Shown: positions 4,051 to 12,428 of the stretch, one piece after another
Layout: each line of letters begins with the position of its first letter
Position numbering within the stretch: the first letter of the stretch is position 1
DNA from: Stieleria bergensis
Lineage (GTDB): Bacteria; Planctomycetota; Planctomycetia; Pirellulales; Pirellulaceae
Assembly: GCA_007745635.1 (NCBI GenBank)
Contig: CP036272.1
Span: forward strand, 3,922,969 to 3,986,968
DNA: 64,000 nt
Direction: 5' to 3'
Position numbers and translations under genes: made by a program
The notes under the pieces: model-generated
The model's input: the letters and a program-made list of their open reading frames with translations, nothing else
What the model was told of the DNA's origin: nothing
Database searches by the model: none

Positions 4051-5910
4051 CTAGCTGTCTTCAGTCGCTGGGACCTTTGCCGTCAAGCGGCGACCAGACA
4101 GACGAATCTCTTGGCCCAAGACCAGGCCGTAGGCAATCAGATGCCCCGCGATCAGCCAACCGAACTGCTTGCGGACTGGGCTGGCACCCAGCATGCAAGC
4201 AATCCCAATCAGGGCACCAAGAATCATTGGATGCGGAATCACTCCGTAGGGAAAACGACTGATTCGTTCCGGTGGCTCTAGCCCCAGTTCACTTGAGAAC
4301 AAGGTTCGAGTGGGACCTAACACGACAGCGGCATAACCCGCCAGTGTAAATCCACCGATGACCCCAAGCAGTGATCCCCAGTCTTTTTGGAATCCCATCG
4401 CATAGACGGCGAACAACTGCAACAGCGACACCGTTTTAAAGAACACGGCATCGCGTTTGAAGGTCCCAAAGGAAACCGGTGTTCGTTCTTGAACAGTTCC
4501 CAGGTAGATCGCATAGTGAACAAAGCTGGTCGCGGCCAACCAGATTCGCCAGTCACTCATTAGCATTGAAACCAGGCCCACGGCCACCAAGAATGCCAAA
4601 TTCGTCCAGCCAACGAATCGAACGGCCAGTTCAAAGAGTTTCGTCCATCCCAGAACCCATTGCGTCTTCAACGCTGCCCACCAACCCGTTGGCTGAATCG
4701 TCTCGAGAAACAATTCCCGGGCTCGTTGATCGTACCAAGTGGTCATCGCTGCTAAGAGCTTTCCATACCAGGCCAATCGCACGGGATACGCGACGAAATG
4801 CAACTTCAGATTGATGCGACTTTCACTTTGCCGCGGATCAGGGTTCCGAGTGATGTAGTGCAGTTCTCGGTTAAAGTCAAACGCCACCGCATCACCATGT
4901 TCCAAGCGATGACCATCGGGGACACTGTATCGTAGGGAGGCCATGGGAAAGTGAGTCGTCACTTCCAAGTTTTGATTCAGCGCCAACATACAGCGATAAA
5001 GCCGAGCGCCGGGGAAGACCGCCCAGGGACCGTCAACGTGTCCCCGATAAAAAACGGTGTCTGATGTTGCCTGTTTGGATGGTCCCGTCAAGTAGACCTC
5101 GTTCATTCCAGAGACCGGTTCGACGCCGTAACCAGCCCCGTGAAACCGGCGGATTTTGTTGATCAATTGTGGATCCCGGCTAAGACGCCTCAAGGCTTCC
5201 GCCGCCTGATCATCAAGGTCGCTCTGCCACCAATGCGTGCTTTGCTCGCTGGTGGTTTGATTGGCCCTGACCCAATCCAAAACCTGTTCAAAGTCCTGTC
5301 GCTGGCTCTGGGCGTTCAATTTTGTCTCCAGAACAGGCTTGCGAGCGACCAACATCCGAAGCGGACTTTGCCGCGACCGCAGGGCTAGCGTCAACAAGAC
5401 AGGCAACAGCAGCAACGTATGCTCCAGAAACGCCTGCCCCCAACGCGCTTCGTTTCGATAACTACTTTGGTACGTCGACTCCTTGACCAACCAGTGCGCT
5501 GCATCCTGCAAGCAATAACCCACAACGAAACAGCACACACCGACGAATGGCCCCGCTTGCACTTGATAGGCAGCCAATCCCACCGCGCCGCAAACCAACG
5601 CGTGCAACACTGAAATCGCCACAGGAGTCAAGCAGGCAACCAGCACAACCTGAGCGGCCGCGATACCAACCATCAGCCAAGGATCAAGCCAGCCGATCAG
5701 GATGTACACCCCCAACAGCGCGAGCGGCGTGGTCAACAAATGGAACAGTACGTTCAACGGACTGCGGTGATGCCGCAAGAACCGCCGACACAGCTCTTGC
5801 CATGCCGTCGATTCCAGTACCGCAGGATCCACACTCGTTGGTGAAGCCGACCGTCTGCCTGGACCTTTTTCCGTGTGACCAGGTTCCTTCACCAGCACTT
5901 CCGTTGCCAT
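4051..5910 (-). CDS. Three-domain membrane protein: DUF962/Mpo1-like, aspartyl-hydroxylase-like, PEMT-like methyltransferase
   Basis: A 619-residue protein and the last gene of the plcP-btaA-btaB operon, starting three bases after btaB ends. Residues about 36-175 resemble DUF962/Mpo1: HHRSPLNVLFH (45-57), several membrane segments, then QDAAHWLVKE (135-144). Yeast Mpo1 is an Fe(II) dioxygenase that alpha-oxidises 2-hydroxy fatty acids. Residues about 255-378 resemble the aspartyl/asparaginyl beta-hydroxylase fold, the family that includes LpxO and OlsC lipid 2-hydroxylases: HVD (291-293), R304/R307, FDFNRELH with H351, and R365 before LKLHFVAYP. Residues about 420-605 are multi-pass membrane and end like PEMT/isoprenylcysteine methyltransferases: RISRFPYGVIPHPM (549-562) and QE (600-601). 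The role in betaine-lipid tailoring is inference. I know of no described protein with this architecture. Confidence 0.7.
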   Translation of the reverse strand: MATEVLVKEPGHTEKGPGRRSASPTSVDPAVLESTAWQELCRRFLRHHRSPLNVLFHLLTTPLALLGVYILIGWLDPWLMVGIAAAQVVLVACLTPVAISVLHALVCGAVGLAAYQVQAGPFVGVCCFVVGYCLQDAAHWLVKESTYQSSYRNEARWGQAFLEHTLLLLPVLLTLALRSRQSPLRMLVARKPVLETKLNAQSQRQDFEQVLDWVRANQTTSEQSTHWWQSDLDDQAAEALRRLSRDPQLINKIRRFHGAGYGVEPVSGMNEVYLTGPSKQATSDTVFYRGHVDGPWAVFPGARLYRCMLALNQNLEVTTHFPMASLRYSVPDGHRLEHGDAVAFDFNRELHYITRNPDPRQSESRINLKLHFVAYPVRLAWYGKLLAAMTTWYDQRARELFLETIQPTGWWAALKTQWVLGWTKLFELAVRFVGWTNLAFLVAVGLVSMLMSDWRIWLAATSFVHYAIYLGTVQERTPVSFGTFKRDAVFFKTVSLLQLFAVYAMGFQKDWGSLLGVIGGFTLAGYAAVVLGPTRTLFSSELGLEPPERISRFPYGVIPHPMILGALIGIACMLGASPVRKQFGWLIAGHLIAYGLVLGQEIRLSGRRLTAKVPATEDS

Positions 5911-5913
5911 TGT

Positions 5914-6855
5914 CTAGGTGCTCTTCTTACCAACAAAGAGATAATACGGAGCGCGAAGCAAGGGCAGGTAAGGCACCTTCCCCAAACGCTCGCAGAAACA
6001 CTGCACTTCAAACTTGCGATGCAGCATCGCACAATGATCTGAGCTCAGATAAACATTGTCGCCAGCAAACCAAGCCGGCCAAAACCAGCGCGTGGCCCAG
6101 GAGTGCTGACGATGCTTGGACGACGCATATTTCCGCGACACATAAAAATCAGTCACGGCAATCATGCCCCCAGGCTTTAAGATCCGATGCGCCAGTTCAA
6201 TGGCAGCAAACCAATCAGGGACCATCGTCAACGAATAAGAAAATGTGACAAGATCAACGGAGTTATCGGGTCGATCCCACGTCGTCACATCAGCCAACTG
6301 AAACGAAGCATTGTCAATTTTTGCGTCGGCAAGTTGCCGCTGAGCGACATCCAGCAGCGATTCGGCGAGATCCACCAAGATCACTTCGTTTAAACTGCCG
6401 ACATGCTGCTTTGCCCGCAAGATGTTTTCGCCCGTGCCAGCACCGAGGTCCGCCCAAACGCCACCGACGGGAAACTGCAACCGTTCAATCAGCGGTCCGC
6501 GACCATGCAACAGCCGACTTCGAAAAGAATCGTAGTCGTCAGCCTGACCGCGATAAAAGCTTTCTAAGCGTTCTTGGTGAGAGTTGCCACGAACGGGATG
6601 GGCGATCAAGTGCCAGAGCACGCGCAGATCACTCCGCAAGGATTTCTTTGCGATCGGCGCCGGACCATCCGCGTCAACGTGCTCGTCCGGCAAACCCGAC
6701 CAATCGCTGTCCGGAAGGTTGGACTGCTGACGATCGCCGCCACGCGGTGGCAACGATTCGATTTCACCCGGGCGCGACACAGACGCAGTGTTGCTGACTG
6801 CGGCGACGGCATTTTGTCTGCCAGGGTCGGGTGGTGTTTGCTGTGATTGACTCAT
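5914..6855 (-). CDS. btaB: S-adenosylmethionine methyltransferase, BtaB-like (betaine lipid N-methylation)
   Basis: A 313-residue class I methyltransferase. BtaB trimethylates diacylglyceryl-homoserine (made by BtaA) to the betaine lipid DGTS. Residues 1-75 are a polar, Pro/Ser-rich tail. The family signature begins near residue 99 (FYRGQADDYDSFR, then LLHGRG). The SAM-binding motif I, DLGAGTG, is at 136-142, an acidic VDLAES strand end follows near 160, and the LKPGG motif comes late in the domain. The C-terminus (LRAPYYLFVGKK) matches the end of BtaB-type proteins. Its ATG overlaps the last four bases of btaA, so the two are translationally coupled. Without BtaA next door it would be an unassigned methyltransferase; the context makes BtaB by far the best call. 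Confidence 0.85.
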   Translation of the reverse strand: MSQSQQTPPDPGRQNAVAAVSNTASVSRPGEIESLPPRGGDRQQSNLPDSDWSGLPDEHVDADGPAPIAKKSLRSDLRVLWHLIAHPVRGNSHQERLESFYRGQADDYDSFRSRLLHGRGPLIERLQFPVGGVWADLGAGTGENILRAKQHVGSLNEVILVDLAESLLDVAQRQLADAKIDNASFQLADVTTWDRPDNSVDLVTFSYSLTMVPDWFAAIELAHRILKPGGMIAVTDFYVSRKYASSKHRQHSWATRWFWPAWFAGDNVYLSSDHCAMLHRKFEVQCFCERLGKVPYLPLLRAPYYLFVGKKST

Positions 6856-8057
6856 GCGGCAACGTCCATCAGGTCCGCGATGTAGAAACTTCCATAAGTG
6901 TGAACACGATCCTGCTGGTGTAGCGATTCCGCCAACCCTTGGTCATATTCCAACAAGTCGCGCAGTTCTCGGCACCGACCATTCACCTGGACATTCAACG
7001 GGTCAACAAAGTCCACACTCAACGCGGCACTTCGCCAGAGGATACGCGTCTGACGATCAGCACGATTGACAATGCTTTGCCACTCCGCCGCCAACAGCTC
7101 GGGATAGTTGTGGTACAGCCAGTCCATGTGATCCAACAAGACAAACCGAGAGATGGGCTGCTGGTGTTGACCAAGAAAGCTTTCGACAGTGTTGGTATGG
7201 GTGTGAACGCGCTGAGCATAACCGTCTTTCAGCTGCTGGAACCCGGCCTCGGTGAGATACTCTGGACAACACTCTTTCGTGTAACTGCCCGTCAGATAAA
7301 CGCGCCAGAAATAGTTATCTCGCAACGGAATCCGCTTAAACACCGTCTCAATGCGATCCTGAATAAAACCACCCAAACCGCCAGGATAGCCGCAATCGAT
7401 CTGCATCCGCTGGCTACGCGGTACACCCAGCATCGCCATGGTGGTGTCGCGGCGAAGCGCCCATCGCAAGGACTTGGAGAACAGTCGGTTGCTGACACCT
7501 TGTGACTCATAGATCTCCGCTTGCCGATCAACGCTGGCCGCGGCAAGCATTTCCTCCACCGTCGCGCGCAAACCTTTGGGGCGATTCAAATAGCCATTGA
7601 TCATCCACGCAAACGTGCCCGACGTGCCACGAAAGTAGAAACTTTTTCGTTTCGCTGTGCCGTCAAAGAAGTTAATGCGCCGATCCCAAACCCGCTGATC
7701 TTGTTCACGCAACCGTCCTCTGACAACGTCATAGTAAATCTCCCGCCAATGCGGATGCATGCCCGTCCCAAACACTTGAAAAAAGTCTTCGTAGTCAAGG
7801 CCGCCGATCGAAGCGAGCTTCAATTCGAGCAATGCATTCTGATGGTGGTTCATATCAACTGCATGGACAGCCTTAGGCCCTTGCAATGCATAGTCCAATG
7901 CGTTGCAACCCGCCGAAGTAATCACCATCACGCTATCTTCGGGAGACAACTTGAGCGCCTGCCGATCCAAACGAGGATCTTCCCAGCACGTGTTGTAGAC
8001 CAAATTTCGCTGATGCATTAACGAAAAACAGCGTCTGCCAATCCAATCACTAATCAT
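6852..8057 (-). CDS. btaA: S-adenosylmethionine:diacylglycerol 3-amino-3-carboxypropyltransferase (BtaA)
   Basis: A 401-residue DUF3419 protein. BtaA moves the 3-amino-3-carboxypropyl group of SAM to diacylglycerol, the committed step to the phosphorus-free betaine lipid DGTS. Visible family motifs are NLVYNTCWEDPRLD (residues 18-31), SAGCNALDY (48-56) and AVDMNHHQNALLELK (66-80), then FYFRGTSG and a conserved GGFIQDR region. I prefer the ATG at 8057 because homologues begin close to the CWEDP block; a TTG at 8099 would add 14 residues. It lies 53 bases after the plcP-like gene and overlaps btaB by four bases. PlcP would supply its diacylglycerol substrate. Confidence 0.92.
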   Translation of the reverse strand: MISDWIGRRCFSLMHQRNLVYNTCWEDPRLDRQALKLSPEDSVMVITSAGCNALDYALQGPKAVHAVDMNHHQNALLELKLASIGGLDYEDFFQVFGTGMHPHWREIYYDVVRGRLREQDQRVWDRRINFFDGTAKRKSFYFRGTSGTFAWMINGYLNRPKGLRATVEEMLAAASVDRQAEIYESQGVSNRLFSKSLRWALRRDTTMAMLGVPRSQRMQIDCGYPGGLGGFIQDRIETVFKRIPLRDNYFWRVYLTGSYTKECCPEYLTEAGFQQLKDGYAQRVHTHTNTVESFLGQHQQPISRFVLLDHMDWLYHNYPELLAAEWQSIVNRADRQTRILWRSAALSVDFVDPLNVQVNGRCRELRDLLEYDQGLAESLHQQDRVHTYGSFYIADLMDVAA

Positions 8058-8110
8058 CGTTTTCTCAACTCTTTCAAATTCCAAATCATTCTCGATCAAC
8101 GCACACGGGA

Positions 8111-9001
8111 TCAGGCGATGCTCTGTACTTGTTCGTAGGACTGACCAAGGGGCAACGCCGGGATTCCAGGCAATGTCTCGCTTGTGTCCTGACTTGACGG
8201 CAGAGCATCAGCGGACAATTCGGGCAGCGAAATCTCCTGCGTCTGGCCATACAAACTGACAAGCTCCAAGCGACCATCGTGCCTTTCCACCAAGCCCGTG
8301 CAGTTCTCCATCCAGTCACCAGTATTGAAGTAAAACGCATCCCCAATCCGCTTGAAACAAGGCGTGTGGATGTGCCCGCAAACGACACCATCACAGCCTT
8401 GGTCCTGTGCATGTTCCACTAGCTTGCCTTCAAACCGGCTTAAGAAGCGGACGGCGCTTTTCACGCGCTGCTTGAGTCGCGCACAGATGCCGTAAGGGTT
8501 CTTGTCCTCGCCTCTAAACCGGCGCACGAACCACTGGTTCCAGAACAAGCAACTGTCGTAAAAGAATGAACTGGCCTTCGATGCCCACTGAGCCTTGGTT
8601 TCAAAGAAGTCGAACAAGTCCCCATGGGTGACAAGCAACCGATGCCCCTGAAGACTTTCGAAAATAAACTCATTGTCAATCCTGACATCCGGAAACCGAC
8701 TGGGAATGATCGCCTGAAATCCAGGCTGCCTCAAAAACGCATCATGGTTTCCGGGAGCGTAGAACAGCTCCGTCCCACTCTCCACCAGTTTGACAAAGTG
8801 ATCGATCACGTGATCACAATCGGTGGTCCAGTGCCAGCCGTAATTTATCTTCCAAGCGTCAAAAAAGTCGCCGACCAAATAGAGAGTGTCGGGCTGATAA
8901 CCTTGAATGAATTCTAAGAATTTTGATGTGCGAGCATGCTTGCAGCCCAGATGCACGTCACTGACAAACAACGTCCGTACCTTTTGCAACGTCCGTTCCA
9001 T
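8111..9001 (-). CDS. plcP: Metallophosphoesterase, PlcP-like phospholipase C (LpxH-related fold)
   Basis: A 296-residue calcineurin-like phosphoesterase. Metal ligand motifs in order are SDVHLG (14-19), GDFFD (44-48), GNHD (84-87), THGD (125-128) and GHIHTP (209-214). The NTGDWMENCT stretch near 228-237 and the W-rich region after GDFFDAW are typical of PlcP. PlcP is induced by phosphate starvation in rhizobia and marine bacteria and releases diacylglycerol from phospholipids. UDP-2,3-diacylglucosamine hydrolase (LpxH) is the sister family, and the next-door BtaA favours PlcP. A clear AGAAGGAT ribosome site lies about seven bases before the ATG at 9001. The C-terminal 45 residues are a polar tail. 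It is the first gene of the lipid operon. I could not identify a Pho box upstream by eye. Confidence 0.82.
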   Translation of the reverse strand: MERTLQKVRTLFVSDVHLGCKHARTSKFLEFIQGYQPDTLYLVGDFFDAWKINYGWHWTTDCDHVIDHFVKLVESGTELFYAPGNHDAFLRQPGFQAIIPSRFPDVRIDNEFIFESLQGHRLLVTHGDLFDFFETKAQWASKASSFFYDSCLFWNQWFVRRFRGEDKNPYGICARLKQRVKSAVRFLSRFEGKLVEHAQDQGCDGVVCGHIHTPCFKRIGDAFYFNTGDWMENCTGLVERHDGRLELVSLYGQTQEISLPELSADALPSSQDTSETLPGIPALPLGQSYEQVQSIA

Positions 9002-9458
9002 ACCTGTATCCTTCTGGTGATGTCGGAATCGCGATTGGGGGAATCAACTCTGCCGCATGTTTTAGCGACGAGATGTGTAAATCCTGTTAGCGATTGAATC
9101 GAACTCGCAGAAGAAAATCTCACATTCACAATCCACACTCTGGCCCTGAATCAGTTCTTCATCAAAGCAGATCATTCCCCGTCTCGGGCTGCCAGACCTT
9201 TCGCTCATCGATGACGAAAGGGTGAAGAAACGATGTGCAACCGAACCCGTTGACAGCGACGATCGCCGCACCTGCACGCGCGTTACGAACGTTCACGGAC
9301 GGTAAAGAAAGAGCGGGCCTTCAGGTTTCCCCTAGGCCCGCTGATGAAGAGGCATTGATGCGCCCCGCGAATCTCGTGGCAGATTCGCCCGGCTCACCGA
9401 ACACCAAATGATTCCGTCATGATCAATGCAGAACCCCAACGAGGTCCTGCATTCGGTT
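9002..9458. other. Intergenic region upstream of the lipid operon
   Basis: No convincing gene is present; a 71-codon minus-strand reading frame at 9062-9277 has no recognisable features. The region should hold the promoter of the plcP-btaA-btaB operon (minus strand) and holds a terminator for the outer-membrane barrel gene. Confidence 0.5.
9312..9342 (-). terminator. Intrinsic terminator of the BBP7-like gene
   Basis: A perfect nine-base inverted repeat (AGCGGGCCT / AGGCCCGCT) with a 13-base loop. Read on the minus strand it is followed by a pyrimidine-rich TCTTTCTTT tract. It lies about 115 bases after the stop codon of the barrel gene and upstream of the plcP-like gene, so it would also insulate the lipid operon. 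Confidence 0.65.
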
Positions 9459-11078
9459 CTACCAGTTGTATTCCAAACCGAACCGGAGACCGTGTAACAT
9501 CAAGCCTCCGTCGGCCTGCACACTCACGGCGTTGTTATTCACCGTCAGATACTGCGTTGGAATCTCGTCCACAGGCCTGGCGACACCGCAAACACTCAGC
9601 AAGCGGTAACCGACGGTCGCTGTCCAACAGGTGCACAGCTGATAAGCGGCCCCCACATTCAACTCGCCAATGGTGGCCAAACGAACGTCGGACGATTCAC
9701 CGACCACGTCCCCTGCACCGGCTCCCTGCAGAGTGGTGAATGCGGTGGCGGTTTCGTTACCAATGTTGTGAAAAACCGACACGTCATTGGCAAAGACGCC
9801 AAACTGGCCACCGATTTGCAGGGAAAGCCGGCAGCCAAGCTGATAGCTGATCTCCGAACCGAATTGGTATCCGTACAAGTCGTTGCGCGTTTCGAACTGA
9901 TAGAAAAGGTCCGTAGCTGAATAGCCCAAGTTCCCATCGACGTCCGCTGCGATTTGAAAGTTTTCATCCAGCTGGAAGTAACGCAAACCATGCCAAGAAC
10001 GCAGTCGCACACATCCATTGCAGGGTCGAGCCAGCGGGCCAAAAAGGCCTCCACACTGCCGTGCACAAGGATCGCAGCAGTTCGAATCACACTGGCCCTT
10101 GCCGCACCATCTCCGCAACGGACCACAGCAACCACCACAGGGATCGCAGCGTCCCAGACGACGTGCTCCGCCAAGACCAAAGCAACTCAGGTTGGCTTCG
10201 AACCCACGGATGCTGGTTTCATTCTCTGCACAAACATTCGCGGCATTGTTGCTGATGTCATCAAACACCGTGACAACTCCACCACCACGATCGATCGAGA
10301 CGTCACGCAGGACACTGAGTGGCACGACTAACCCAGCGCCACCGTTGGCGACATTGTGTTGCTGGTCCTCTGGGTCCCAGGCGAAGAACCGCATTCCAAG
10401 TGCATAGCGTCCGCAACACAGATAGCGGCCAACCGTTGCATCGTAGCCAACAAAATCGTAGCCGTTCACATCACCCGCGGTGGTCAGCGTGTCACCGCCA
10501 TCAGTCGCCAACAGCAGCGTTCCATCGCTACCGAGCGACTGCCAATAGGTCGCGCCAACACCACCAAACCAACGCCGAATGGGGGACGCAGTTGGCATCA
10601 GATTTTCTGTGCCATACGCAGTCACGTCCACCGTCGGCTCTACCACAAGAGGATCAGAGCTAGGCGGCTGGGCCACCTGGGGCTCCATCACAGACGGTGC
10701 CTGCACATAACCCGCGGAACTGGCCGGAGCGTCTAAGTAACCCTGATCGGGTGCCTGAGGTTTAGGGAGGCTGACGCCAACAGCATCACTTAAGGGAGCG
10801 ATCGCGATGCTGTTGGCGCCACCCGCACCCGTTGCTGGTGGGCGACTTAATGCAACGGGCTGATGACTGATTGATGATGGTGCGTTCTGTGGTGCCCAAG
10901 CATCTGGCCCCCAATGGGCTGGCGCATAGAAGCCTGGCAAGCGAGAACCGCTGTGGTTTTGCGCCGAGGCCACCGGCGACAGGATCAAGCAACAGATCCC
11001 CACCAGGGCGCAGGAGATGGCCGCTCGAAGGTGACAGGATGGAATCCGATCACGGTGGAAAGAGGGAACTAGTTGCAC
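9459..11078 (-). CDS. BBP7-like outer membrane beta-barrel protein
   Basis: A 539-residue exported protein. It starts with GTG at 11078, eight bases after an AAGGAG ribosome site. A basic n-region, a hydrophobic core and cleavage near ASAQ form the signal peptide. Residues about 40-150 are a Pro/Ala/Gln-rich linker. The rest alternates short strands with aromatic ends, as in planctomycete porin-like barrels: a GVGATYWQSLG start strand, a Cys/Gly-rich loop cluster in the middle (about 300-345, many CDPCGG-type pairs), WHGLRYFQLDENF, and a final RFGLEYNW that fits a C-terminal barrel strand with an aromatic end. Function is probably structural or porin; no substrate is indicated. The Cys-rich insertion is unusual for a barrel and could be disulfide-bonded in a surface loop. 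Confidence 0.7.
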   Translation of the reverse strand: MQLVPSFHRDRIPSCHLRAAISCALVGICCLILSPVASAQNHSGSRLPGFYAPAHWGPDAWAPQNAPSSISHQPVALSRPPATGAGGANSIAIAPLSDAVGVSLPKPQAPDQGYLDAPASSAGYVQAPSVMEPQVAQPPSSDPLVVEPTVDVTAYGTENLMPTASPIRRWFGGVGATYWQSLGSDGTLLLATDGGDTLTTAGDVNGYDFVGYDATVGRYLCCGRYALGMRFFAWDPEDQQHNVANGGAGLVVPLSVLRDVSIDRGGGVVTVFDDISNNAANVCAENETSIRGFEANLSCFGLGGARRLGRCDPCGGCCGPLRRWCGKGQCDSNCCDPCARQCGGLFGPLARPCNGCVRLRSWHGLRYFQLDENFQIAADVDGNLGYSATDLFYQFETRNDLYGYQFGSEISYQLGCRLSLQIGGQFGVFANDVSVFHNIGNETATAFTTLQGAGAGDVVGESSDVRLATIGELNVGAAYQLCTCWTATVGYRLLSVCGVARPVDEIPTQYLTVNNNAVSVQADGGLMLHGLRFGLEYNW

Positions 11079-11364: not shown

Positions 11365-12294
11365 CTAGCCAAACAAGGTGACGGGATCGATGACGGTTGG
11401 TTCTGCGGAAAGTTTCTTCCAGTCAAATTGCGTGATCAAGTCACGTGCTGCGCAGGGTTCCTGGCGGTCAATCAATCCCAGCGAATACGCCGCCCAACCG
11501 ACCACCTGACTAGCACTGACCCCGTTTTCCCGATAGAAGCTTAAACGCGTGTCGCCATGCCGCTTGGCCAGACGCCGCCCATCGACGCCTAGGACCAATG
11601 GAACATGAGCGTAGGCGGGGGGATCCCAACCTAGCAACTGATGGATTTGCAACTGACGAAACGTACTGGCAACCAAATCATTGCCTCGAACAACGGTGTC
11701 TACGCCCTGCAAATGATCGTCAATAACAACCGCTAGCTGGTAACTGACTTGACCGGAGCGGGTGGTCATGGGAAAGTCCCCCAGTTCATCGGCGGGACAA
11801 CACCCCTGAGTTCCAAGCACACGGTCGTGGAACACAAGCTGCTGCTCGCTGGCTCGCAAACGCCAATAAGAGTCCTCGGCGCTGGCCTGCCTGCCATCTG
11901 GTGGTCGACAAATGCCTGGATAAATCGGCCCCTCTCCCCGAAAGCGACTTTCATGAGGCGCCGACAAAGCCTCCGCGATATCGTTGCGAGAACAAGCGCA
12001 GCGGTACGCCAAACCAGCGGTGGCGTCAGTCAATCGCTCTAGAATCTGCTGGTAGTGCTGCTGGTGCGACGACTGAATCACCGGCGCGCCGTGACATTCG
12101 ATTCCCAACCAAGCCAAATCATCAATCGCCTGCTGCACCGCCCAAGCCTTCACACGCGGCGAATCCAAGTCGTCGATGCGCAACAGCAACTCCTGACCGG
12201 CTTGCTGGGCGGCCCAATAAGCAATCAAGTGAGTCCGGGCGTTTCCCAGATGCTGGGCTCCGGTCGGCGAAGGTGCTAAACGTGATCGAGTCAA
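11365..12294 (-). CDS. gluQ: Glutamyl-Q tRNA(Asp) synthetase (GluQRS)
   Basis: A truncated glutamyl-tRNA synthetase paralogue of about 309 residues. GluQRS attaches glutamate to queuosine at position 34 of tRNA-Asp. The HIGH-type block sits at the N-terminus (LAPSPTGAQHLGNART), followed by RIDDLDSPR. A CAC motif and a later PGIC provide the zinc-site cysteines typical of GluQRS. The KMSKS loop appears as RLAKRHGD. The anticodon-binding domain of true GluRS is absent, which separates the two families. No ATG lies near the conserved start. A TTG at 12294 gives a family-like N-terminus, while a TTG at 12357 would add 21 residues of intergenic-looking sequence. Confidence 0.85.
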   Translation of the reverse strand: MTRSRLAPSPTGAQHLGNARTHLIAYWAAQQAGQELLLRIDDLDSPRVKAWAVQQAIDDLAWLGIECHGAPVIQSSHQQHYQQILERLTDATAGLAYRCACSRNDIAEALSAPHESRFRGEGPIYPGICRPPDGRQASAEDSYWRLRASEQQLVFHDRVLGTQGCCPADELGDFPMTTRSGQVSYQLAVVIDDHLQGVDTVVRGNDLVASTFRQLQIHQLLGWDPPAYAHVPLVLGVDGRRLAKRHGDTRLSFYRENGVSASQVVGWAAYSLGLIDRQEPCAARDLITQFDWKKLSAEPTVIDPVTLFG

Positions 12295-12428
12295 AGCAAT
12301 AAACCGCTGGTGTCGGTGATTCGAATCCAGATTCCCGCCAGCACTGGCGAGGCACAACGGGCGTCAAACGAATTGGCAGCCGTCCCAACAGGCAACCGCC
12401 GCCTCGCCAAATCCCCGTCCCCTTTTTT

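Follow-up and report, generated by a model that had tools for sequence, protein, structure and literature searches.

A plcP–btaA–btaB operon of Stieleria bergensis with a tightly spaced fourth gene for a predicted oxygenase–methyltransferase membrane protein

A stretch of 64,000 nucleotides from the Stieleria bergensis genome (positions 3922969–3986968 of the single 7,107,266-base contig CP036272.1; hereafter the window) contains a compact cluster of four genes. Three of them, plcP, btaA and btaB, encode a phospholipase C-type phosphoesterase and the two enzymes of betaine lipid synthesis. The fourth gene encodes a fusion of three domains: a tentative Mpo1-like membrane domain, a predicted Fe(II)/2-oxoglutarate (2OG) oxygenase and a PEMT-type membrane N-methyltransferase. 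We propose, with a rough probability of 0.55, that the cluster is a phosphate-starvation operon whose products would provide diacylglycerol, convert it into betaine lipid and then tailor this lipid through the action of the fourth protein. The gene order, the protein families, the conserved metal and motif residues and a promoter box common to the operon and the pst genes of the same genome are observed. For the fourth protein, a role in modifying the betaine lipid is the simplest interpretation, since it is predicted to hold centres for oxygen activation and N-methylation at the membrane, and its gene follows btaB.

All four open reading frames (ORFs) are located on the minus strand and span positions 9001 down to 4051 of the window (Table 1). 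The btaA stop overlaps the btaB start by four nucleotides (6852–6855), and three bases (5911–5913) separate the btaB stop from the ATG of the fusion gene; the tight same-strand cluster reported in a preliminary description of this DNA is thus confirmed. With btaA and btaB downstream of plcP, the locus has the arrangement that defines a type 1 plcP cluster. The most likely start of btaA is the ATG at 8057 rather than the TTG at 8099; the resulting length of 401 residues is also found in nine ORFs of relatives. The gene-neighbourhood comparison proposed in the preliminary description revealed the same four-gene order in 12 of the 13 intact fusion loci of the family (Pirellulaceae). The arrangement is therefore not a chance of one genome, though the family loci share descent.

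Table 1. Features of the four-gene locus and of the fusion protein (positions in the window)
Feature	Position	Strand	Basis
PlcP-type phospholipase C (metallophosphoesterase)	8111..9001	-	Metallophos 9.2e-13; apart from LpxH in tree
BtaA, S-adenosylmethionine:diacylglycerol 3-amino-3-carboxypropyl transferase	6852..8057	-	DUF3419; ORF open to TTG 8099
BtaB-type N-methyltransferase	5914..6855	-	methyltransferase folds; N-terminal extension ~55 residues
Three-domain membrane protein, 619 aa (Mpo1-like + 2OG oxygenase + PEMT)	4051..5910	-	intact family members, alignments
Domain 1, residues 34-182, tentative Mpo1-like membrane domain	5365..5811	-	weak Pfam PF06127; invariant H48, N53, H57, Q135, H139, E144
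Domain 2, residues 183-410, predicted Fe(II)/2OG oxygenase fold	4681..5364	-	AlphaFold2 + Foldseek; HxD...H = H291, D293, H351; R365
Domain 3, residues 411-611, PEMT-type membrane N-methyltransferase	4078..4680	-	Pfam PEMT; H560-P561, E601 invariant
Pho-box-like promoter element, 34 bp, upstream of plcP	9059..9092	-	matrix from 13 relatives

The first gene of the cluster encodes a phosphoesterase that matches the Pfam family Metallophos with an E value of 9.2e-13. Two curated LpxH models score below their cut-offs on this protein (51.6 bits against 134 and 45.9 against 190.35). In an unrooted phosphoesterase tree of 33 rows, which included 20 of the 24 plcP genes of relatives, the four LpxH rows separate at 100/100 support; a flag for long rows was raised for three of them, one from LpxH and two from the PlcP group. 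The window protein groups with the 28 other rows, among them the Sinorhizobium meliloti protein, which we take to be PlcP, and the proteins of loci L140, L146, L147 and L148. It shares 32% identity with the S. meliloti protein and 24% with Escherichia coli LpxH. Clustering with LpxH had been named beforehand as the outcome that speaks against a PlcP-like enzyme; it was not seen, and with the 100/100 split of the LpxH rows this identity was rejected. By family the window phosphoesterase is of the PlcP type, and by analogy with characterised families it would act as a phospholipase C. The public record of the S. meliloti phosphoesterase carries the label UDP-2,3-diacylglucosamine diphosphatase. 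The four tree rows L140, L146, L147 and L148 come from records with a neighbouring glycosyltransferase gene, and in L140, L146 and L147 the PlcP-type genes beside these glycosyltransferase genes bear the same public label (LpxH), which is probably a misannotation.

A second plcP is present in the same genome (L110, 5714–6580, minus strand; contig positions 3434713–3435579), and its product is 54% identical to the window PlcP. It stands after a kinase-like gene, and a gene that looks similar by eye precedes plcP–btaA–btaB–fusion in several loci of the Stieleria group. The four-gene operon of this genome may therefore be located at a different place from that of its relatives.

The identity of BtaA is borne out by a match to DUF3419 (PF11899) of 380 bits against a cut-off of 28.2 (E 1.6e-113). 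The window btaA is the only DUF3419 match in the source genome, and this family is present in 179 of 241 genomes of the Pirellulaceae. BtaB shows Pfam methyltransferase folds, stands next to btaA and aligns with the S. meliloti gene that follows btaA at 31% identity over 153 residues (pairwise E 2e-19), which is in agreement with its earlier assignment; among the matches listed (25 of 28) there was no curated BtaB model. Its relatives align from residue 56–76 in most loci and from residue 1 in L089, so that the N-terminal extension comprises about 55 residues. From characterised families, the products of plcP, btaA and btaB would be expected to have the corresponding activities. At the sequence level, the joint function in lipid replacement that had been suggested is favoured by a PlcP that is not LpxH, the DUF3419 match and the likeness of BtaB. 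No viral contigs with BtaA were found. The 3.7 Mb record CP090106.1 (L138, L149), which contains plcP-type genes as well as btaA–btaB, is named S. meliloti plasmid pSymB; judging from replicon sizes, it may be the chromosome. Locus L064 of genome G454 has no btaA and only truncated forms of plcP and btaB, and its fusion gene is without about residues 107–289; either the pathway was lost naturally or the assembly is at fault.

The fourth protein of the window itself has no Pfam match above cut-off. Hydropathy and a full-length predicted model (mean pLDDT, the per-residue confidence score, 69; 13 sequences) point to membrane blocks at the two ends with a soluble part between them. In the window, isolated domain 1 matches the Mpo1-like family PF06127 at E 0.0057 (17.2 bits), and in L113 the match is at E 0.00025 (21.6 bits), with a cut-off of 24; matches at E ≤ 1 are seen in four of the 15 fusion members. 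Its six motif residues are invariant in all 15. Stand-alone Mpo1-like relatives were tried as a bridge, with which domain 1 was still under the Pfam cut-off. The reading of this domain as DUF962, the former name of the Mpo1-like family, therefore stays tentative: it has weak matches in its favour, all of them under the cut-off.

Domain 2 was modelled alone by AlphaFold2 from 15 sequences (pLDDT 76, predicted template modelling score 0.79). A Foldseek search of this model against the PDB gave 131 matches at E ≤ 1e-3, the best at 7.1e-7, and the 50 of these that were listed are all Fe(II)/2OG oxygenases at 10–15% identity. The top fold is AndA, which we take to be of the PhyH type. The predicted double-stranded beta-helix fold with its HxD...H motif places domain 2 in the Fe(II)/2OG oxygenase superfamily; the three motif residues and R365 are invariant. 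The isolated domain has no Pfam family at E ≤ 10, and no Pfam or NCBIfam family fits it or its stand-alone relatives. Asp_Arg_Hydrox (PF05118), with which the middle domain had been connected, was absent from every Pfam scan, including those of the isolated domain and of the 15 members, and was abandoned in favour of the 2OG oxygenase fold.

For domain 3, PEMT (PF04191) scores 13.2 bits on the whole window protein and 18.1 bits on the isolated domain (E 0.0037), below the cut-off of 25. The same family is above cut-off in L113 (40.7), L114 (34.5), L136 (41.2) and L135 (33.4), and it is matched at E ≤ 1 by all 15 fusion members, the best at 2.3e-8. The suggested PEMT assignment thus passes the cut-off in these four loci, while the window protein on its own remains under it. 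Sequence searches of solved structures gave nothing convincing, whether started from the entire family, from the middle domain or from domain 3; there was one chance-like match at E 1.2.

Matches to the fusion were found in 17 of the 241 family genomes: 13 intact copies including that of the window, an internal deletion (G454), remnants in G455 and G427, and a 26% match in G417, which was dropped as a long ORF resembling an unrelated membrane protein by eye. Twelve of the 13 intact copies lie directly after btaB on the same strand. The exception is G409 (L056), where the fusion gene is unlinked and plcP–btaA–btaB is located elsewhere in the genome. With one copy from the same taxonomic order (G1038) and three from the sample of the phylum to which a Myxococcales metagenome-assembled genome (MAG) belongs (G484, G485, G705), full-length fusion loci with one architecture amount to 17; of these, 12 are operon-linked, one (L096, the Myxococcales MAG) is convergent with btaB–btaA, and four have no btaA or btaB match in the sequence stretch that was read. 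BtaA of L096 is 23% identical to that of the window. The fourth gene, previously described as coding for a new fusion protein, is hence real and constant in architecture, and it is not unique to this genome. A single-sequence search of the window's phylum sample detected its own genome only (1/246); a profile search of the class sample gave 13 of 397, comprising eight full-length copies, one PEMT-only match, one remnant and three Mpo1-like-only matches. A scan of named genomes gave no match with the single fusion protein as query and seven loci with the alignment as query. Plasmid searches with the fusion, P0004 and P0005 found none. In G409 the unlinked fusion gene (6079–7959, minus strand) is close to a PstS-like ORF (4425–5573, plus strand; PBP_like_2, 3.7e-35).

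Co-occurrence connects the fusion with betaine lipid genes to a different extent in the two samples. In the phylum sample of the Myxococcales MAG, DUF3419 is present in all four carriers, one of which (G504) was matched with the PEMT part only, as compared with 83 of 282 genomes (about 0.007 by hand, uncorrected for kinship). In the family, all 13 intact carriers have DUF3419 against the background of 179/241, which is weak by itself.

Two further loci, from distant genomes, contain the oxygenase and the methyltransferase as separate genes. In G504 (L114, 7487–8876) the stand-alone oxygenase ORF P0001 is overlapped at its end by P0003, a PEMT-only ORF on the opposite strand. In G1010 (L136, 87–1965), from the window's class, P0006 (PEMT) and P0005 (oxygenase) are neighbours on the same strand. 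The two oxygenase ORFs share 50% identity, and by profile comparison they match domain 2 at E 1.2e-12, a value from one comparison and not from a database search. When the fusion was used as tblastn query, domain 1 remained unmatched in both L114 (16 kb, E 1e-2) and L136 (6.3 kb, E 1e-3). The separate genes without a domain 1 match imply that oxygenase and PEMT form what looks like the recurrent core, to which the Mpo1-like domain would be an addition.

The sequences upstream of plcP share the consensus TTAACA-N5-TNAACA followed by G(C/A)TA. In the window it reads CTAACA-N5-TACACA, an 11-bp repeat, followed by GCTA. With a matrix from 13 relatives that excluded the window, the top site among 127934 positions is 9092 on the minus strand, 57 bp before plcP (17.6, next 10.7). 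In the pstS–pst–phoU stretch of the same genome (L137; pstS, permease, ATPase and PhoU by Pfam), the top site is 5056 before pstS (19.7, next 3.3). The top site of the second plcP stretch is 6759 (14.5, next 11.4), and that of L056 is 8007 (14.9, next 5.2), immediately in front of the unlinked fusion gene. Eight loci outside the training set have their top site upstream of the first gene, plcP or btaA (L052, L053, L064, L062, L063, L070, L089 and L090), the first three being near-copies of trained rows; the L066 stretch is cut off and fell outside this test. Ten column-shuffled matrices gave no score above 7.9 on the pst stretch (true 19.7), and one reached 13.7 on the second plcP stretch (true 14.5). 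The box, which we take to resemble PhoP/PhoB repeats, is probably the Pho box of this clade, and its presence before the pst operon of the genome supports phosphate control of the four genes. An E. coli-type PhoB consensus matched 8–10 of 14 positions at scattered places and was dropped.

In the proposed pathway, a PhoB-type regulator would bind the box under phosphate shortage. PlcP would then free diacylglycerol from phospholipids, and BtaA and BtaB would convert it into the betaine lipid diacylglyceryl-N,N,N-trimethylhomoserine (DGTS), as known for these enzymes from excerpts of PMC3972451 and PMC10685587. The fourth protein would tailor DGTS at the membrane, with substrate and product both hypothetical: the 2OG oxygenase domain may oxidise the head group (or an acyl chain), the PEMT domain may methylate a lipid amine, and the Mpo1-like domain, a possible relative of Fe-dioxygenases, may give a membrane site or a follow-up oxidative cleavage.

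Several observations weigh against this proposal. For four of the 17 full-length copies (L056, L135, L113, L115) no btaAB is present in the stretch read, a single MAG contig provides the adjacency outside the family, and within the family the linkage may go back to one event in a common ancestor. The correlation of fusion with BtaA distances (r 0.91, 0 of 2000 permutations; for G409, BtaA of its other locus was taken) speaks in favour of the proposal, but shared descent also predicts it, and btaA against plcP reaches the same value. Most DUF3419-bearing genomes of the family are without the fusion (13 intact copies against 179/241). Within the genus, G449 and G453 have plcP–btaAB without a fusion match, and G455 keeps plcP–btaAB with a decayed fusion; the fourth gene is therefore dispensable. 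Domain 1 is below the Pfam cut-off, as is the stand-alone relative L133, and the loop holding the HxD of the domain 2 model has a pLDDT below 50. A Foldseek search of the full-length model against the PDB gave 103 matches at E ≤ 10 and none at E ≤ 0.001, with a 2OG-type fold leading.

The box, too, has points against it. In four loci (L069, L085, L086, L088) the top site falls elsewhere than before the genes, and in L087 the site ranks second; no convincing box was seen in 12 distant btaAB loci (L071–L077, L079, L081–L084), in L135 or in L136. Leave-one-out tests rank 13 of 13 sites first, but since the sites used for training had been chosen by eye, this result is partly circular. Simulated 64-kb sequences reached 17.4 in one of 12 cases, so that 17.6 alone is indecisive and the evidence lies in the position of the top sites, not in their score. 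One of the ten shuffled matrices scored 15.3 on the L056 stretch against the true 14.9. A genome-wide profile search, in which 150 of 939 candidates were scored, returned the plcP site, itself part of the model, and one weak site, and not the pst site.

Four other explanations of the fourth protein were considered. An acyl alpha-oxidation, in which the 2OG domain hydroxylates C2 of the acyl chain and the Mpo1-like domain cuts the chain one carbon shorter, would tune acyl length for a betaine lipid membrane and leave PEMT an added or separate function. The invariance of the six domain 1 residues in 15 of 15 members and the AndA fold of domain 2 fit this route, as does the title of Seki et al. 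2019 (cited in PMC9624242), which describes Mpo1 as an Fe(II) dioxygenase in the alpha-oxidation of 2-hydroxy fatty acids. However, domain 1 is Mpo1-like only tentatively and is unmatched in the split loci L114 and L136, where oxygenase and methyltransferase make up the core. We consider this route unlikely.

The fourth protein might instead work before PlcP, with PEMT turning phosphatidylethanolamine (PE) into phosphatidylcholine (PC)-like lipids for hydrolysis and the oxygenase modifying the same phospholipids. PlcP degrades PE, its monomethyl derivative and PC, according to an excerpt of PMC3972451, and the PEMT family methylates PE, as indicated by its Pfam name and by an excerpt of PMC7828035. 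This explanation leaves the oxygenase without a clear role, and in the Myxococcales MAG the fusion stands with btaA–btaB in a stretch of 11.7 kb that shows no match to plcP, which makes it quite improbable.

Hydroxylation and N-methylation of another phosphorus-free planctomycete aminolipid, such as ornithine or trimethylornithine lipid, is very unlikely: trimethylornithine and hydroxylated ornithine lipids are known, with OlsG as the known N-methyltransferase (excerpts of PMC12493201 and PMC7828035), but the fourth gene tracks btaA–btaB, and no ornithine-lipid genes were recognised by eye in the ORF lists inspected, no dedicated search having been made. It is just as hard to credit that the gene merely rides along, cotranscribed under phosphate stress and unrelated to lipids, as its patchy presence and the decayed copies in G454, G455 and G427 might suggest, since the PEMT domain points to lipids, the unlinked copy seems to keep the box, and the second phylum sample ties the fusion to DUF3419.

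Betaine lipid tailoring thus remains our preferred reading. A more specific form of it, which is tentative and on balance doubtful, is that the fourth protein is a missing head-group enzyme, acting on the head group of DGTS by oxidation and by remethylation or rearrangement. Its product might be a lipid like diacylglyceryl hydroxymethyl-trimethyl-beta-alanine (DGTA) or diacylglyceryl carboxyhydroxymethylcholine (DGCC), or an undescribed hydroxylated betaine lipid. The split oxygenase–PEMT pair would be the minimal form of such an enzyme. Upstream of the operon, the window ORF 9459–11078 (minus strand) encodes a BBP7-type beta-barrel protein (Pfam 4.4e-17), and the ORF 11365–12357 (minus strand), judged by eye only, resembles glutamyl-queuosine tRNA(Asp) synthetase.

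Betaine lipids take the place of phospholipids under phosphate shortage, and the synthesis of DGTS is known. According to excerpts of PMC10685587, the enzyme for DGTA is unknown and DGCC synthesis is wholly unknown. Here three lines connect a predicted oxygenase–methyltransferase with the DGTS genes: gene order, a shared phosphate-type promoter element, and co-occurrence, which is informative in the MAG phylum sample and weak in the family. If the head-group reading is true, the protein gives an enzyme for a betaine lipid without assigned synthesis. In the open-licence literature, no description was found of the three-part architecture, of the split pair or of a phosphate-type box before an unlinked copy, and nothing was returned on hydroxylated or novel betaine lipids.

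Domain 3 resembles the phospholipid N-methyltransferases of PF04191, whose model it matches below the cut-off and its relatives above it; it differs from them in its fusion to an oxygenase and an Mpo1-like domain and in its position beside betaine lipid genes. Domain 2 has the predicted fold and the invariant HxD...H of Fe(II)/2OG oxygenases such as AndA, AsqJ, SnoN, OkaE and others, yet its identity is 10–15% among the matches listed and it lies inside a membrane protein. Domain 1 is like the Mpo1-like dioxygenases (PF06127) in being a multi-helix membrane domain with conserved H..N..H and Q..H..E, and unlike them in being below the Pfam cut-off and fused. The plcP–btaA–btaB core itself is already known. 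It is the type 1 cluster of Sebastian et al., with putative Pho boxes (excerpts of PMC4796936), and planctomycete sequences stand in the BtaA tree of PMC10685587, in the available excerpts of which no plcP, promoter or fourth gene is discussed. The core is hence ordinary; the string "planctomycet" is absent from the main text of PMC4796936. The window locus shares with the type 1 cluster the gene order, the putative Pho boxes and the presumed replacement of phosphorus lipids, and it adds to them a tightly spaced fourth gene for a predicted oxygenase–methyltransferase.

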